From Gemmatimonadaceae bacterium (GTDB taxonomy: Bacteria > Gemmatimonadota > Gemmatimonadetes > Gemmatimonadales > Gemmatimonadaceae): a DNA stretch of 64,000 nucleotides. The DNA is taken from assembly GCA_016742275.1 (NCBI GenBank), contig JACVCD010000018.1, positions 1 to 64,000 of the forward strand, in the 5' to 3' direction. Of this stretch, positions 4,001 to 64,000 are shown one piece after another (the first letter of the stretch is position 1; the number at the start of each line of letters is the position of its first letter). A program made the position numbers and the translations under genes. A model generated the notes under the pieces. It did no database searches, was not told the origin of the DNA, and was given only the letters and a program-made list of their open reading frames with translations.

Positions 4001-4678
4001 ATGCTCCGCTCCGATACCGCTTCCGCTTTCATCACCACCGAACACGAGATCCCAGGCGCGCACTCCGGCCCCTCACATCGCCTGTCCGCCGCCGAAGCCG
4101 CACTGGCTCGCCACTCAGTCCGTGTCTATCGCGATGAGCCCGTCACCGATGACGAGATTCGCACGCTGATCTCGCTCACAGGCCGTGCGCCCTCGGCGTT
4201 CAATCTCCAGCCGTGGCGATTCGTGGTCGTCCGCGATCAGACCACCAAGAACCAGCTCATGGCCGCCGCCCACGGACAGAAGCAGGTCGGCCAGGCGCCG
4301 GTAGTCATCGCCATGTACGCCGACATGGAAGACACGATGGCGCATCTCGACGAGGTCGTGCACCCAGACCTCGACGCTGACAAGAAGGCATCCACCATCG
4401 CCATGCTCAATCGGAATTTCGGTGGCATGACCCCCGAGGCGCGTGCGGCCTGGGCCAACAATCAGTCCAACATCGCGCTCGGCTACCTCCTGCTCATCGC
4501 CAAGTCGGAAGGCTTCGACACTTCCCCGATGCTCGGCTTCCAGGCTGACCTCGTGAAGCAGACACTTGGCATCCCCGCGCACGCGACCATGACCGCCATG
4601 GTGGCGCTGGGGCGAGGAGCGGACCACGGATTTCGGTCGCATAGACACACAGTCGAGCGCACGACCAGCTTTCGCTGA
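4001..4678 (+). CDS. Nitroreductase-family FMN oxidoreductase
   Basis: The 225-residue product belongs to the nitroreductase fold. RHSVRVY-DEPV near residue 40 and GRAPSAFNLQPWRFVVV (about 66-82) form the usual FMN-binding start, and a C-terminal MVALGRG segment follows. Such enzymes reduce nitro compounds or quinones with NAD(P)H. The marR-like gene just upstream suggests induction by an aromatic or quinone compound, as in quinone-stress systems. ATG at 4001 is used; alternative starts further up (3959) read through the promoter and the shared decamer. Confidence 0.85.
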   Translation: MLRSDTASAFITTEHEIPGAHSGPSHRLSAAEAALARHSVRVYRDEPVTDDEIRTLISLTGRAPSAFNLQPWRFVVVRDQTTKNQLMAAAHGQKQVGQAPVVIAMYADMEDTMAHLDEVVHPDLDADKKASTIAMLNRNFGGMTPEARAAWANNQSNIALGYLLLIAKSEGFDTSPMLGFQADLVKQTLGIPAHATMTAMVALGRGADHGFRSHRHTVERTTSFR

Positions 4679-4683
4679 GAGTT

Positions 4684-4756
4684 GAGAGGGTCGGAGTAAC
4701 GAGAATTCAGAAGCGCGATGGACATAGACATCAGAGTTCAGACTTCCGACCCTCTC
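4684..4756. repeat. Intergenic inverted repeat, possible terminator of the nitroreductase gene
   Basis: Arms GAGAGGGTCGGA (4684-4695) and TCCGACCCTCTC (4745-4756) pair perfectly over 12 bp around a 49-base loop. It starts six bases after the nitroreductase stop. There is no T-tract, so it may be a Rho-independent-like stabiliser or a dispersed repeat rather than a classical terminator. Confidence 0.5.
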
Positions 4757-4793
4757 ACCTCCCAGAATCGTGGTGGGATGATTAGGTCAGAGT

Positions 4794-19526: not shown

Positions 19527-21602
19527 TTACGGCGTATTGGACTTTCCGCCGTGCTGATCGAACCATCCCTGGATGTACGCCATCTTCTGCAGCCAATGAC
19601 TGGGTGATTCGCGAATGCCATGCGGTTCACCAGGCACCTTGACCAGTACCGATTCCACACCGCGAAAGCGCAGTGCGCTGTACCACTGCTCCGATTCACT
19701 CATCGGTGTGCGGAAATCCATCTCACCGGTAATCACCAGCGATGGCGTTCGTACGTGTTGCACACGAGACAGCGGTGAACGATTGGCGTACTGCGCCGTG
19801 TGATCCCATGGTGCGCCGGGAAACCATGTCGTCGCACCACGTGGCATGTCCGCCGTGAAAAGCCAGGACGTCCAATTGATGACGGGATACTCCACTACGG
19901 CCGCGCGATAGCGATTGGTGTACGACGTGATCCACGCCGTGAGCACACCGCCGCCGCTGCCGCCTGCCACATAGAGCTGCGTGGTATCAACAATGCCCTT
20001 GCCGATCACCGCATCCACCACACTCTCGAGATCGAGACGATCGAAGTTCGGATAGTCGTGGTGAATACCATTCGCGAACTTTTCGCCATAGCTCGTGCTT
20101 CCACGGGGATTGGCGTACACCACCAGATATCCCGCACCGGCCAAGGCCTGCTTTTCGAGATCGAATCGGTCACCATAGCCCAGGAATGGGCCACCGTGAA
20201 TCTCGAGTACCAGCGGGTAGCGCTTGCGTGCATCGAAATTGGGCGGCTTGATCAGCCACGCCTGAATACGCGTGCCATCGTGTGATGACGGTGTCCACAG
20301 CATCTCCACCTCGCCAAACGCGGCGCGTTCGCGAAGTGTGCTATTCAACGCCACTCGCACGGTTGGCATACTGTCGCCCTGCGCACTCGTCGCCACGCCA
20401 CCGGGCGCATTGCCGCGTGACGTCACATACGCCACGCGCCCGCCGCGCGAGACACTGAACCCCGCGCCTTCATAGGCCGTCTGACCATTGCCAAGATGCC
20501 GAGCGACTGTGCGTATGCTGTTGCCGGTCAGTGGCACATAGCGCACCTGCGTTTCGCCTTCGGTGTTGATCTCCACATAGATGCCACGCGAATCCTCGGC
20601 CCATACCGGACTTCCAACCGATCGATCAAGCGACGCGGTGAGTGAACGCCGATTCGACCCATCCGCGCGCATCACATAGAGCTCGTGATTCTGATATCCC
20701 AGCCGGCGATCATCATAGCCGGTGAATGCAATCCATTGCCCGTCGGGTGACATCACGGGGCGATTGTCAGGCCCAAAGCGTTCCGTAAGCGCGCGCACGG
20801 CACCGGTTCCCGCATCCACCGCCAACACTTCAGTGTCGGTGTTTTCGATTTCAAAGTCCGCGCGGCGATTGACGCTGATAAGAATCGTGCGACCATCGGG
20901 CGACCACGCCGGAACACCAGGTCCGCGTCCGCCGCCGCCACCCACATGATACGCACCACGCGTCAGCTGCTTCGTCTGCCCTGTGGCCACATCAACCACG
21001 AACAGCTGCGACCAACCGCGCTCCATTTCACCTACACCGTCGAAGCGATAGATGAGTTTGTCGAAGGCGCGCGCGGGCGCAGTCCATGTGGCGCCGGTTG
21101 GTGGTGCGATGTTGTTGGCAATGGCGGGCAATGCGTCGGGCACCAGTGCCGTGTACGCCACCTGCCTTCCATCGGGCGACCACACACCGCCAGATGGCGC
21201 GCGCGTGGCGGTCGTGATTTTGGCCGTCTGCCCCGTCGCCACCGTGAGAGTCCAAAGCTGCGTCTGCCCATCGCGCACCGAGCGATACAACACACGCGCA
21301 CCATCAGGCGACCAGCGCGGTGCCGTCTCCGCCGTGCCTTCAATCAACTGGCGATGCTGCGACCCGTCGGTATTGGCAATCCAGATGCTGCGCAGGCGTT
21401 TGTCGCGCAACGAGTCCACCTGCTGCCGCACATAAAGCAGCTGCTGGCCGTCTGGTGAGATCTGCACATCCGCGGCGGTCTCGAGCAGCAATGCGTCGCG
21501 AGGTTGGATGCCTCGGGTGGGTTGTGTGCTGGCAGAATTTGCTGAGAGCGACACAGCAACGAGCGCAGCACAATGAAATCCGAACGCGCGCTTGGCAGAC
21601 AT
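19527..21602 (-). CDS. Secreted S9-family dipeptidyl/acylaminoacyl peptidase
   Basis: The 691-residue product has a signal peptide (about 1-27), a beta-propeller of TolB-like SPDG repeats (about 40-430), and a C-terminal alpha/beta hydrolase domain. The nucleophile lies in GGSGGGVLTA, the Asp in GEMDFRTP and the His in GEPHGI, an intact triad. Substrates are small peptides reaching the active site through the propeller. The last residues reach within 9 bases of the convergent gene end at 19518. ATG at 21602 is chosen over a GTG two codons upstream. Confidence 0.93.
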   Translation of the reverse strand: MSAKRAFGFHCAALVAVSLSANSASTQPTRGIQPRDALLLETAADVQISPDGQQLLYVRQQVDSLRDKRLRSIWIANTDGSQHRQLIEGTAETAPRWSPDGARVLYRSVRDGQTQLWTLTVATGQTAKITTATRAPSGGVWSPDGRQVAYTALVPDALPAIANNIAPPTGATWTAPARAFDKLIYRFDGVGEMERGWSQLFVVDVATGQTKQLTRGAYHVGGGGGRGPGVPAWSPDGRTILISVNRRADFEIENTDTEVLAVDAGTGAVRALTERFGPDNRPVMSPDGQWIAFTGYDDRRLGYQNHELYVMRADGSNRRSLTASLDRSVGSPVWAEDSRGIYVEINTEGETQVRYVPLTGNSIRTVARHLGNGQTAYEGAGFSVSRGGRVAYVTSRGNAPGGVATSAQGDSMPTVRVALNSTLRERAAFGEVEMLWTPSSHDGTRIQAWLIKPPNFDARKRYPLVLEIHGGPFLGYGDRFDLEKQALAGAGYLVVYANPRGSTSYGEKFANGIHHDYPNFDRLDLESVVDAVIGKGIVDTTQLYVAGGSGGGVLTAWITSYTNRYRAAVVEYPVINWTSWLFTADMPRGATTWFPGAPWDHTAQYANRSPLSRVQHVRTPSLVITGEMDFRTPMSESEQWYSALRFRGVESVLVKVPGEPHGIRESPSHWLQKMAYIQGWFDQHGGKSNTP

Positions 21603-21658
21603 CAACACGCATACTCCTGTGCGGGGAACCTGGGCATGATCCCCATATTACGCACAGT

Positions 21659-22180
21659 CTACAGATACCGCGCCACCGCCATCCCCGCAGCACTCAAGGT
21701 GAGTAACACCACAGCAGCGAATGACGCCTGGCCGCCACGGCGCCGCAGTATTGCCACGCGACGAGTGAGACTGTCGCGCTCACTGGCCGACAGCATTGCC
21801 CCCACTTCGCCGAGTCGTGCGCCGATCTGCGCCGCTTGCACCTGCGAGGGACGTCCTACCAGCATGGCCAGGGCAAATCCCAGCAGCGCGGCCGCGCCCG
21901 ACCATGCGAGTGTGCGCCCCATCGGCGACGCGAGATACACCGCCGGCTGACCGGCCGCCATCACCCACCATAACCGGCTGCCGGTCACCAACGTCAGAAT
22001 GGCTGCAATCGGCATCCAGGTCATCAACCCCCGCGTGCGCAGACCCTGCAGCACCGCACCACCAGACGGGCCTGCAGCCGCCAGGGTAGGCATGAGAAAG
22101 AGTGACGACAGGAGACCTGCGCCCAGCCAGAAGGTCGCGGAAAGAATGTGCACGAGACGCAACAACAGAATTTCGGTCAT
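21659..22180 (-). CDS. Small membrane protein, likely SoxR-regulated (CopD-like)
   Basis: The 173-residue product has four or five hydrophobic segments: about 5-33, 52-72, 83-108 and 150-170. The first carries RLVHILSATFWLGAG, where the His/Trp spacing resembles CopD-type heme or copper membrane domains. A 19-bp spacer promoter with a SoxR box (22252-22282) faces this gene, so it should be induced by redox-active compounds or superoxide. Function is not known; roles such as electron-transfer or export are guesses. Confidence 0.7.
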   Translation of the reverse strand: MTEILLLRLVHILSATFWLGAGLLSSLFLMPTLAAAGPSGGAVLQGLRTRGLMTWMPIAAILTLVTGSRLWWVMAAGQPAVYLASPMGRTLAWSGAAALLGFALAMLVGRPSQVQAAQIGARLGEVGAMLSASERDSLTRRVAILRRRGGQASFAAVVLLTLSAAGMAVARYL

Positions 22181-22251: not shown

Positions 22252-22282
22252 AGCGTAAGACTTCAAGTGCACTTGAAGTCAA
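22252..22282 (-). promoter_or_regulatory. SoxR box within a 19-bp-spacer promoter
   Basis: The core TCAAGTGCACTTGA sits in a perfect 22-bp palindrome (22259-22280). On the minus strand TTGACT and TACGCT are separated by exactly 19 bases, the MerR-family arrangement in which activated protein distorts the DNA. The box matches the TCAAGTnnACTTGA core of enteric SoxR sites and lies between soxR and the membrane gene on the other strand. Confidence 0.88.
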
Positions 22283-22301: not shown

Positions 22302-22787
22302 ATGTCTTCCTCGCCCGCCAGACGGCTGACCCTCCTCACCATCGGCCAACTGGCTGCACGCACCGGTGTCGCCACTTCGGCGCTCCGCTACTACGAGTCG
22401 CTGCAACTCATAGGTGCCATCCGTACCGAGAGCGGACATCGACGCTACCCGCGTGCCACCACGCGACGTGTGGCGTTCATCCTGTTCGCGCAGCAACTCG
22501 GACTCACCCTCGATGAAATCGGTGCAGAACTCGCCTCGCTCCCAGACAACCGGGCGCCCGATCCCGCACATTGGCAGCGTCTCTCTCGCAGCTGGAATCG
22601 TCGGATCGACCAGCGCATTGCAGAGCTCGAGCGACTGCGCGGCAGTCTCGCCGATTGCATTGGTTGCGGCTGCCTCTCACTCGCACGTTGTCACATTCTC
22701 AATCCCGGTGACCGCGCGGCATCACTCGGACCCGGTCCACGCTGGTGGATGGGTGACACTCCCGATGCTCCGCGTCGCGGGACGTGA
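22302..22787 (+). CDS. soxR: Redox-sensitive transcriptional activator SoxR
   Basis: The 161-residue product is a MerR-family regulator. LTIGQLAARTGVATSALRYYESLQLI (about 11-36) is the DNA-binding motif, followed by the dimerisation helix. The iron-sulfur cysteines appear as C119-x2-C122-x-C124-x5-C130, the spacing of the [2Fe-2S] cluster in SoxR. Oxidation of that cluster by redox-cycling drugs turns the protein into an activator. The divergent membrane gene has a SoxR box, so it is the likely target; soxS is not present. ATG at 22302 places the cysteines at the same numbers as in the E. coli protein. Confidence 0.95.
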   Translation: MSSSPARRLTLLTIGQLAARTGVATSALRYYESLQLIGAIRTESGHRRYPRATTRRVAFILFAQQLGLTLDEIGAELASLPDNRAPDPAHWQRLSRSWNRRIDQRIAELERLRGSLADCIGCGCLSLARCHILNPGDRAASLGPGPRWWMGDTPDAPRRGT

Positions 22788-24117: not shown

Positions 24118-24150
24118 CTGCCGCCATACGGCCCCAGCCGAAGGTGTGCG

Positions 24151-24177
24151 CCTCCGTGTCGTCAGCCGGAGGACACG
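24151..24177 (+). promoter_or_regulatory. Expression platform: anti-Shine-Dalgarno hairpin
   Basis: CCTCC (24151-24155) can pair with GGAGG (24168-24172), which is the ribosome site of thiM. CGTGTC (24154-24159) can alternatively pair with GACACG (24172-24177), covering the first base of the GTG start. Either pairing masks translation initiation when TPP is bound. Confidence 0.55.
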
Positions 24178-24992
24178 TGACCCCACCAGCATCATCTCCG
24201 GCGAGCCTTTCGCCTGCAGCCGCGCTTGCAGCACTGCGTGCAGCCGCGCCTCTCACGCAATGCATCACCAACTACGTGGCCATGAACATCGCCGCGAATA
24301 CCTTGCTCGCCGCAGGTGCCGCGCCAGCCATGGTGCACACGGCCGAGGAGAGTGGGGCGTTCGCCCGTATCGCACGGGCAGTCACGATCAACATCGGCAC
24401 GCTCTCTCCCGCGTGGGTGGAAGGCATGACGGGGGCCATTGCAGCAGCCACCGAAGTGGGCACACCCTGGGTTCTCGATCCGGTCGCTCACTTCGCGTCG
24501 CCCTATCGCGCCGGTGTGGCACGTGACCTGCTCTCCAGAAGACCCACAATCCTGCGAGGCAATGCGTCGGAGATTCTCGCGCTCGCTGGCGGAGACACCA
24601 CCGCGAAAGGCGTGGACACCACCGACCCCGTAGTCGCAGCAGGACCAGCCGCTCAGGTACTGGCCAGAGAATTCGGTAGCATCGTGGCCGTCACCGGTCC
24701 GGTGGATCTCGTGACCGACGGCACGCGCATCGCCACGATCACCGGTGGTTCACCGTGGATGCCGCGTATCACCGCCCTTGGCTGTTCACTCACCTGCCTC
24801 ATGGGCTCATTCGCCGCTGTGGCCGCGCCACTCGACGCAGCGGTTGCAGCACTGACGTTATTCGCCGAAGCCGGAGAACGAGCCGACCGCCTGGCCGAAG
24901 GCCCCGGCACATTCAGTTGGCGCTTCCTCGATGCACTGGCTGCCGTCTCCCCCAATGATCTGATGAATACGACACGCGTGACATGGGCCTGA
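24177..24992 (+). CDS. thiM: Hydroxyethylthiazole kinase
   Basis: The 271-residue product phosphorylates 4-methyl-5-(hydroxyethyl)thiazole in thiamine salvage. Family marks are TQCITNYVAMNIAANTLLAAGAAPAM (about 26-51), GTLSPAW (about 75-81), PWVLDPVAH (about 98), NASEILAL and the active-site GCSLTCLMGSF (about 198-208, with C in GCS). It lies behind the TPP riboswitch and overlaps thiE by 10 bases. GTG at 24177 is chosen because GGAGGA lies 4-9 bases upstream; the GTG at 24144 has no such site. Confidence 0.95.
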   Translation: MTPPASSPASLSPAAALAALRAAAPLTQCITNYVAMNIAANTLLAAGAAPAMVHTAEESGAFARIARAVTINIGTLSPAWVEGMTGAIAAATEVGTPWVLDPVAHFASPYRAGVARDLLSRRPTILRGNASEILALAGGDTTAKGVDTTDPVVAAGPAAQVLAREFGSIVAVTGPVDLVTDGTRIATITGGSPWMPRITALGCSLTCLMGSFAAVAAPLDAAVAALTLFAEAGERADRLAEGPGTFSWRFLDALAAVSPNDLMNTTRVTWA

Positions 24993-25636
24993 TCTCAGCG
25001 GATCAGATTCGCACGCAGCTGCGTCTCTATCTCGTCACCGATGCAGAACTCTGTGGGGCACGAGGCGTGGCGGACACGGTGCGTGCGGCAGTCGCAGGTG
25101 GTGTGAGCATGGTGCAACTGCGTGACAAGACGGCCACCACACACGAACGCATCGCGATGGGTCAGGTGCTCATGCAGATCCTCGCCGGAACCGATGTCCC
25201 GCTCATCATCAACGATGACATCGACGCCGCGATCGCCATCGGCGCACACGGAATTCATGTCGGGCAATCCGATATCACATCGCAGATCGCGCGTGAAGGA
25301 CTGGGGCCTGCAGCCATCGTCGGACTGTCGTGTGAAACCGTAGCACACGCCAGCGCTGCCGACCCGCTCATCGTGGACTATGTGGGCATCGGACCGATCT
25401 TTGCCACGTCCACCAAACCGGATCATGCAGCAGCACTCGGGCTCACGGGTCTCGAGACCGCACGCGCTGCCACTCACTTGCCGGCCGTCGCCATTGGCGG
25501 ACTGCACCTTGAGCATGTGGCACAGATCATGGCCAGTGGAGTCGATGGCATCGCGGTGGTCTCGGCCATCTGTGGACAATCAGATCCCCGTGCGGCTGCA
25601 GCCGCGCTGACCAATGCACTCGCCCGTGCACTATGA
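24983..25636 (+). CDS. thiE: Thiamine-phosphate synthase
   Basis: The 217-residue TIM-barrel enzyme joins HMP-PP and thiazole phosphate to thiamine phosphate. It shows LYLVTD near the N terminus, GVSMVQLRDK (about 40-49), LIINDDIDAAIAIGAHGIHVGQSD (about 74-97), DYVGIGPIFATSTKPDH (about 132-148) and GGLHLEHV. It overlaps thiM by 10 bases and thiD by four (ATGA), and sits in the thi operon behind the riboswitch. The start ATG at 24983 is inside the thiM end. Confidence 0.95.
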   Translation: MGLISADQIRTQLRLYLVTDAELCGARGVADTVRAAVAGGVSMVQLRDKTATTHERIAMGQVLMQILAGTDVPLIINDDIDAAIAIGAHGIHVGQSDITSQIAREGLGPAAIVGLSCETVAHASAADPLIVDYVGIGPIFATSTKPDHAAALGLTGLETARAATHLPAVAIGGLHLEHVAQIMASGVDGIAVVSAICGQSDPRAAAAALTNALARAL

Positions 25637-26460
25637 AACTGCCGATGACCTCCTCACGCATTCCTCACGCGCTCTCCATTGCCGGATCCGATCCATCCGG
25701 CGGCGCCGGCATTCAAGCCGACCTCAAAACGTTTTCAGCGCTTCAGGTCTACGGAATGGCCGCACTCACGGCGCTTACCGCGCAGAACACCCGTGGTGTG
25801 TCCGCCGTGCATTTGGCGCCACCCGCATTCGTGCGCGAGCAACTCGATGCACTCTTCAGCGACATCCGCATCGATGCCGTGAAGATCGGCATGATTGCCA
25901 CGGCAGAAATCGCTGAAACGATCGCCGATGTTCTCGCAACACAGACTCACGTCCCGGTGGTGCTCGACCCGGTGATGATCGCCAAGGGCGGAGCATCCCT
26001 GCTGCAGACCGATGCCGTGGATGCTATCCGCTTGCGCTTGCTTCCTTTGGCCACGGTGATCACGCCTAATCTGCCGGAAGCAGCCCGTCTGCTTGATACA
26101 GCGGTTGCCACCACACGCGCGGAGATGGAAACACAGGCCTCGGCACTTCGCGATATGGGTCCACAGGCCGTGCTGCTCAAGGGTGGGCATCTGGAAGGCG
26201 ATCGCAGTCCCGACTGCTTGGTGACAGCGCAAGCGATGCATTGGCTCGACGCCCCGCGTGTTTTTACCACGCACACACACGGCACAGGATGCACGCTGTC
26301 TGCGGCCATTGCGGCCGGTCTCGCCAGCGGTGTCGATCTGCTCTCGGGTGTACGCGCGGCCAAGCAGTACGTCACTGACGCCATCACTGCTGCTCACCTA
26401 CTCGATGTGGGCCACGGCCACGGTCCCACTCACCATTTCCATGCCCTCTGGCATTCCTGA
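25633..26460 (+). CDS. thiD: Hydroxymethylpyrimidine kinase / HMP-phosphate kinase
   Basis: The 275-residue ribokinase-fold enzyme makes HMP-PP. The start ALSIAGSDPSGGAGIQADLKTFSAL (about 13-37), VVLDPVMIAKGG (about 107-118), LLKGGH and THTHGTGCTLSAAIAA (about 213-228, with the catalytic region) are typical. It overlaps thiE by ATGA and leaves one base before the SDR gene. With thiM and thiE it forms a salvage and coupling set; thiC and thiG are not in the window. Confidence 0.95.
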   Translation: MKLPMTSSRIPHALSIAGSDPSGGAGIQADLKTFSALQVYGMAALTALTAQNTRGVSAVHLAPPAFVREQLDALFSDIRIDAVKIGMIATAEIAETIADVLATQTHVPVVLDPVMIAKGGASLLQTDAVDAIRLRLLPLATVITPNLPEAARLLDTAVATTRAEMETQASALRDMGPQAVLLKGGHLEGDRSPDCLVTAQAMHWLDAPRVFTTHTHGTGCTLSAAIAAGLASGVDLLSGVRAAKQYVTDAITAAHLLDVGHGHGPTHHFHALWHS

Positions 26461-63676: not shown

Positions 63677-63921
63677 CGCTCAAGTCGCGCCTTCGCTTCT
63701 TCGTGGGACACGACTCGCTCATCAGCAACGGCCATTTCACCGCGAGCGATGCCTTCCAGAATGGCCATGCGCTCCTGCTGACGCTGATACGATTCGACAT
63801 CGATCAGGTAAGCACTCGGCAGTCCATGCTGAGTGATAAGAATGGGTTCCTTGTCCCGCTCGAGCTCCGCCAAAAGCTCGGTCGCCTGACGCTTCAACGT
63901 CGTGACCAATTCTGTGCGCAT
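63664..63921 (-). CDS. Phd/YefM-type antitoxin
   Basis: The 85-residue product has the Phd fold: LVTTLKRQATELLAELERDKEPILITQHGLPSAYLIDVESYQRQQERMAILEGIARGEMAVADERVVSHEEAKARLERWL. It binds DNA at the N terminus and covers the toxin with the C terminus. It is first in the operon and its promoter carries a perfect 24-bp palindrome ending two bases before the first codon's position, so autoregulation is expected. The message would be almost leaderless. Confidence 0.92.
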   Translation of the reverse strand: MRTELVTTLKRQATELLAELERDKEPILITQHGLPSAYLIDVESYQRQQERMAILEGIARGEMAVADERVVSHEEAKARLERWLK

Positions 63922-63945
63922 AGAGTGATACTATAGTATCACTCT
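63922..63945. promoter_or_regulatory. Operator of the toxin-antitoxin operon
   Basis: A perfect 24-bp palindrome with half-site AGAGTGATACTA directly precedes the antitoxin ATG (63919-63921). On the minus strand it includes TATAGT (63930-63935) as a -10. The remaining bases to the window end show no gene. Confidence 0.85.
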
Positions 63946-64000
63946 AATTCCAGCAAGGGACTACGACGCCTTCCGTCGCTCCGTCCCATCATATGACGCA

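Follow-up and report, generated by a model that had tools for sequence, protein, structure and literature searches.

The window, which here denotes the whole 64-kb stretch of DNA that was analysed, contains a soxR gene standing head to head with the gene of a small membrane protein. The soxR gene (22302-22787, plus strand) was identified from its translation, a MerR-family protein of 161 aa that scores 167.8 bits against TIGR01950, where the curated cut-off is 116.9, and that aligns without gaps with the E. coli SoxR structure 2zhg (E 1e-33, residues 7-148 to 7-148). The cysteines have the CX2CXCX5C arrangement of the [2Fe-2S] cluster as C119-X2-C122-X-C124-X5-C130, numbered from the ATG at 22302, and the ungapped alignment bears out the observation in an earlier note on this DNA that these positions (C119, C122, C124, and C130) equal those of E. 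coli SoxR.

The gene divergent from soxR (21659-22180, minus strand) encodes a helical membrane protein of 173 aa, and a SoxR-type promoter at 22252-22282, also on the minus strand, reads towards it. In this direction the -35 hexamer TTGACT (22277-22282) is followed by a 19-bp spacer, TCAAGTGCACTTGAAGTCT, and then by the -10 hexamer TACGCT (22252-22257), which matches three of the six consensus positions and is weak by sigma-70 standards; a plain sigma-70 scan missed the promoter because it allows spacers of 16-18 bp only. The SoxR box lies within the promoter spacer as a perfect 22-bp palindrome, GACTTCAAGTGCACTTGAAGTC (22259-22280), so that the site has the layout of SoxR-activated promoters, in which a dyad (TCAAGT..ACTTGA) falls within a 19-20-bp spacer between the -35 and -10 elements. 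On re-reading of the minus strand the box and the 19-bp-spacer promoter facing 21659-22180 were as previously described, except in the length of the palindrome: the 14-bp core is present, and the perfect symmetry extends over 22 bp. A palindrome scan ranks it second in length among the perfect palindromes of the window, with the next at 16 bp. The membrane protein ORF starts at 22180, which would give a leader of about 65 nt from this promoter, and on the other side the soxR start codon is about 22 bp from the palindrome, placing the box also within the upstream region of soxR. Because of this proximity soxR is probably autoregulated, with SoxR limiting its own expression.

On the same strand as the membrane protein gene and 50 bp downstream of it is a gene for an S9 prolyl-oligopeptidase/DPP-IV-like peptidase of 693 aa (19527-21608, minus strand; Pfam PF00326, 147.5 bits), and no terminator-like site was found between the two. 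This gene had been overlooked when the membrane protein was called the only visible target, and from its position it is probably the second gene of the same transcript. The spacing, the shared strand, and the lack of a terminator-like site in the scan, together with retention of the membrane protein and S9 genes as a pair in a relative without soxR or a box (G020), would also fit a scheme in which the SoxR target that matters physiologically is the peptidase rather than the membrane protein, perhaps as a degrader of damaged or toxic peptides. We regard that scheme as quite improbable, since the partner that recurs beside soxR is the membrane protein, and a search around two of the five other soxR/membrane protein pairs (L200 and L202) found no S9 homologue.

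Two further features of the window were noted. A perfect palindrome of 26 bp, TAGAGTGATACTATAGTATCACTCTA, at 63921-63946 immediately precedes, on the minus strand, a small gene that by eye resembles Phd/YefM-type antitoxin genes, and this palindrome is probably a toxin-antitoxin autoregulatory operator. At 24144-26460 the ORF list contains three consecutive plus-strand frames resembling, by eye, thiM, thiE, and thiD of thiamine salvage.

The SoxR box in the genome and in relatives

Pattern searches over the 4.57-Mb genome, with the reversed pattern as control, found the exact 14-mer core TCAAGTNNACTTGA once, at the window site. One further site had one mismatch and about 40 had two, the latter mostly inside open frames, and none of these inexact sites in the whole genome had a SoxR-type promoter in register; per strand the pattern gave 42 sites versus 62 for the control, which is at chance level. 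A composite -35/box/-10 pattern applied genome-wide recovered the window site with two mismatches, and the remaining matches were the same box on the plus strand and three 3-mismatch sites lacking a box, compared with six matches per strand for the control. The genome scan that the earlier note had proposed therefore returned no second SoxR box with exact, mismatch, or composite patterns; the box in the window is real and non-random, and it is alone in the genome as far as pattern scans show. As these scans show no further target for SoxR, the membrane protein is likely to be its main effector.

Intact SoxR, defined by E < 1e-50, is present in 12 of 179 genomes of the family. In half of these 12 loci soxR is arranged head to head with a membrane protein homologue, and in the other six with a short-chain dehydrogenase (SDR). 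The six membrane protein pairs are spread over four genera, comprising the window, G119 with G107, G402 with G403, and G427 (relatives' loci L200, L202, L242, L243, and L244, all head to head). Their promoters all carry TTGACT at -35 and TAnnnT at -10, separated by 19 bp, together with a TCAA...TTGA dyad, and have TTGACTTCAA and the second half-site TTGAAG in common, while the flanking DNA is unrelated: across the 31 promoter columns the commonest base is found on average in 5.1 of the six sequences, versus 3.2 upstream and 3.0 downstream. In G107 both half-sites have changed and the dyad is intact (TCAACC..GGTTGA), as would be expected of a bound site. When the 300 bp upstream were searched for some 44 membrane protein homologues outside these loci, no box was found within two mismatches, so that among the family members examined the box occurs only where soxR adjoins.

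It is the comparison with relatives that makes the pairing convincing, and the recurrence of the same head-to-head pair in the same register, in six intact cases from four genera, gives good support to the earlier proposal that what the box controls is a small membrane protein and not soxS. A different reading of the palindrome is that it serves soxR autoregulation only, the membrane protein gene being a chance neighbour with a promoter of its own. The closeness of the palindrome to the start of soxR (about 22 bp) is compatible with this, as is the G020 membrane protein/S9 pair, which is presumably expressed without soxR or a box. However, a chance neighbour would not be expected to recur as partner in four genera with the -35 element, the 19-bp spacing, and the -10 element all conserved towards it in six loci, and the region yielded no further promoter-like site, which together make this reading unlikely.

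Where soxR faces other partners the box is much the same and the promoter register is identical. In eight genomes of the phylum (G347, G272, G167, G267, G298, G396, G088, and G393; loci L198, L199, L201, L203, L205, L207, L208, and L209) soxR faces an SDR gene, which is thus a second recurrent SoxR partner in the phylum. One genome (G148) has two soxR copies (L206 and L210); both have a SoxR box, and both face a gene resembling those of NADPH-dependent FMN reductases. At L212 (G089:C33) a perfect SoxR box precedes the gene of a MerR-family protein that scores only 78 bits against the window SoxR and is, by its sequence, a divergent SoxR-like regulator that has retained this operator. The closest named SoxR, at 69% identity, is that of a Thermomicrobiales MAG (CADCWG010000068.1, at about 3945; L118), where the 14-bp core of the box, TCAAGTGCACTTGA, is identical and soxR faces a gene with the Pfam "Luciferase domain".

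The membrane protein family

The membrane protein falls below all Pfam cut-offs, with DUF2269 (PF10027) as its sole match at 9.6 bits versus a cut-off of 28. Among 21 homologues, DUF2269 is matched weakly by 11 (best E 0.00045) and UPF0093/HemJ (PF03653) weakly by five (best E 0.002), whereas CopD (PF05425) is matched by a single homologue at E 0.37 and by the window protein not at all; the label "CopD-like" that it had been given is therefore not supported. The likeness of the protein to DUF2269 and UPF0093/HemJ is distant. Twelve columns are invariant in the 21 homologues (M1, R8, H11, W18, G20, P31, G67, L70, G88, M167, R171, and Y172). An AlphaFold2 model built with these homologues is all-helical, with four long hydrophobic helices and a mean pLDDT of 94.9. 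A Foldseek search of the PDB with this model gave no significant match (best E 0.63), a profile search of solved structures gave no credible match, and the structural alignment list from VIA-align consists mostly of unrelated and designed helical bundles; cytochrome b561 (4o6y) aligns with the model at Z 9.5 (rmsd 2.9, 135 aligned), and unrelated bundles also reach Z 9-13. A search of open-access papers yielded none naming both SoxR and DUF2269, and a literature search combining Gemmatimonas-type names with SoxR yielded none with SoxR in the title or abstract.

The weak UPF0093/HemJ matches raise the question of whether the protein is a HemJ-type protoporphyrinogen/coproporphyrinogen oxidase through which SoxR tunes haem synthesis, and a profile comparison with the HemJ of the same genome does place the conserved His and Trp in register. 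Against this, the window protein itself has no UPF0093/HemJ match in the Pfam search, the hhalign probability versus HemJ is 4.5%, and the genome has a separate, clear HemJ (G000:C17:37952; 166.2 bits versus a cut-off of 34.2), so that a HemJ identity is very improbable. The presence of this separate HemJ also led us to reject the idea that the membrane protein fills a missing HemJ step.

History of the pair

Homologues of the membrane protein (E <= 1e-15) are present in 54 of 395 genomes of the phylum, mostly away from soxR, and because most are unlinked to it, the core function of the protein does not depend on SoxR. In the SoxR tree, the six soxR genes paired with the membrane protein group together (support 93/72), apart from those paired with an SDR; this grouping by partner requires one change in 100% of bootstrap trees, and for three partner labels two changes suffice, the least possible. 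The soxR genes facing SDR or FMN-reductase genes form separate groups, and the Thermomicrobiales SoxR (L118), which is not paired with a membrane protein, falls inside the membrane protein-paired clade. The membrane protein tree differs in that the six paired proteins lie within a supported clade of 16 (97/94), where they are mixed with unpaired ones. Monophyly of the six was rejected by the AU test (p 2.9e-05), and with the G020 protein added to them the test gave p 0.09. As the six soxR-linked membrane proteins do not form one clade, the linkage was gained or lost more than once.

Two relatives bear on the direction of these changes. In G025 (G025:C5:672440-672772; L098, about 4438-4790), a seventh species with traces of the pair, the 3' parts of soxR and of the membrane protein gene are joined head to head, and the promoter and the 5' parts of both genes are gone, which we infer could be accounted for by a single deletion. 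The protein of G020 is a close homologue of the window membrane protein (53% identity) with neither soxR nor a box beside its gene. In 29 further genomes from the genus no sequence passed the SoxR cut-off. The simplest reading of these sequences would be that the pair is old and that soxR has been lost repeatedly, with G025 as a remnant and G020 perhaps as a completed case; gain of the soxR linkage is a possible alternative.

A predicted SoxR circuit and its relation to known systems

In non-enteric bacteria SoxR directly controls a few transporters and small-molecule-modifying enzymes, soxS being confined to enterics, and the targets in Pseudomonas aeruginosa and Streptomyces coelicolor include transporters, monooxygenases, oxidoreductases, and an epimerase (PMC4146615). 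The system described here resembles these regulons in its CX2CXCX5C SoxR, in having the box in the promoter of the direct target, in its very small extent, and in not having soxS as a target, and it departs from them in its predicted target, a helical membrane protein that is uncharacterised and is encoded divergently from soxR. A divergent arrangement is shared with soxR-soxS of E. coli, where, however, the divergent gene is the AraC-type soxS, so that this is not an enteric SoxRS system. The register of the window promoter is that of the E. coli soxS promoter, with a -35 element, a 19-bp spacer containing the dyad, and a -10 element. With the soxR genes of the phylum that lie next to SDR or FMN-reductase genes the window gene has the box, the register, and the divergent arrangement in common, though the partner in those cases is a short-chain dehydrogenase or an NADPH-dependent FMN reductase. 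A precedent is MexG of the P. aeruginosa mexGHI-opmD operon, a small integral membrane protein that SoxR controls. MexG is of the DoxX type and its operon also encodes an RND pump; the membrane protein here, in contrast, has no DoxX match, and no pump was seen in the adjoining genes.

MerR-family activators work by distorting promoters with over-long spacers. By analogy, a SoxR dimer carrying [2Fe-2S] clusters would occupy the palindrome in the divergent promoter, whose 19-bp spacer is over-long, and oxidation of the clusters by redox-cycling small molecules would cause SoxR to distort the DNA such that RNA polymerase could use the promoter. The membrane protein gene would then be transcribed, with read-through into the S9 gene 50 bp on, while the position of the box just before soxR would allow SoxR to limit its own expression. 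We consider it quite likely, from the arrangement of the locus and its conservation, that this is a one-component redox switch in which the SoxR box drives the membrane protein gene, and probably the S9 gene with it.

What the membrane protein does is a matter for more tentative proposals. Because non-enteric SoxR targets are transporters and small-molecule-modifying enzymes, the leading guess, and one we hold only loosely, is a role in handling redox-cycling metabolites at the inner membrane, where by analogy the protein might bind them, expel them, or re-reduce them. A more far-reaching idea, which appears doubtful, is that soxR and the membrane protein gene make up a self-contained redox circuit, with the protein as a haem- or quinone-linked carrier of electrons that re-reduces the redox-cycler, or SoxR itself in place of Rsx. 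The pointers in that direction are the one invariant His, the distant HemJ/DUF2269 likeness, and a difference from E. coli, in which RnfC/RsxC is part of the SoxR-reducing system: a search of the present genome gave no RnfC/RsxC over cut-off.

The circuit is of an ordinary type for SoxR in non-enteric bacteria, and what is new is a recurrent, conserved, and uncharacterised family of membrane proteins as its predicted target, the window protein being a credible new SoxR target. The family thereby gains a predicted regulator in SoxR and a candidate inducer in redox-cycling compounds, and direct SoxR regulons are extended to a phylum that has been little studied, where sensor and promoter are constant and the effector gene varies by lineage. 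Should the membrane protein turn out to have a redox function, or to act on compounds resembling phenazines or quinones, it would represent a new kind of SoxR effector.
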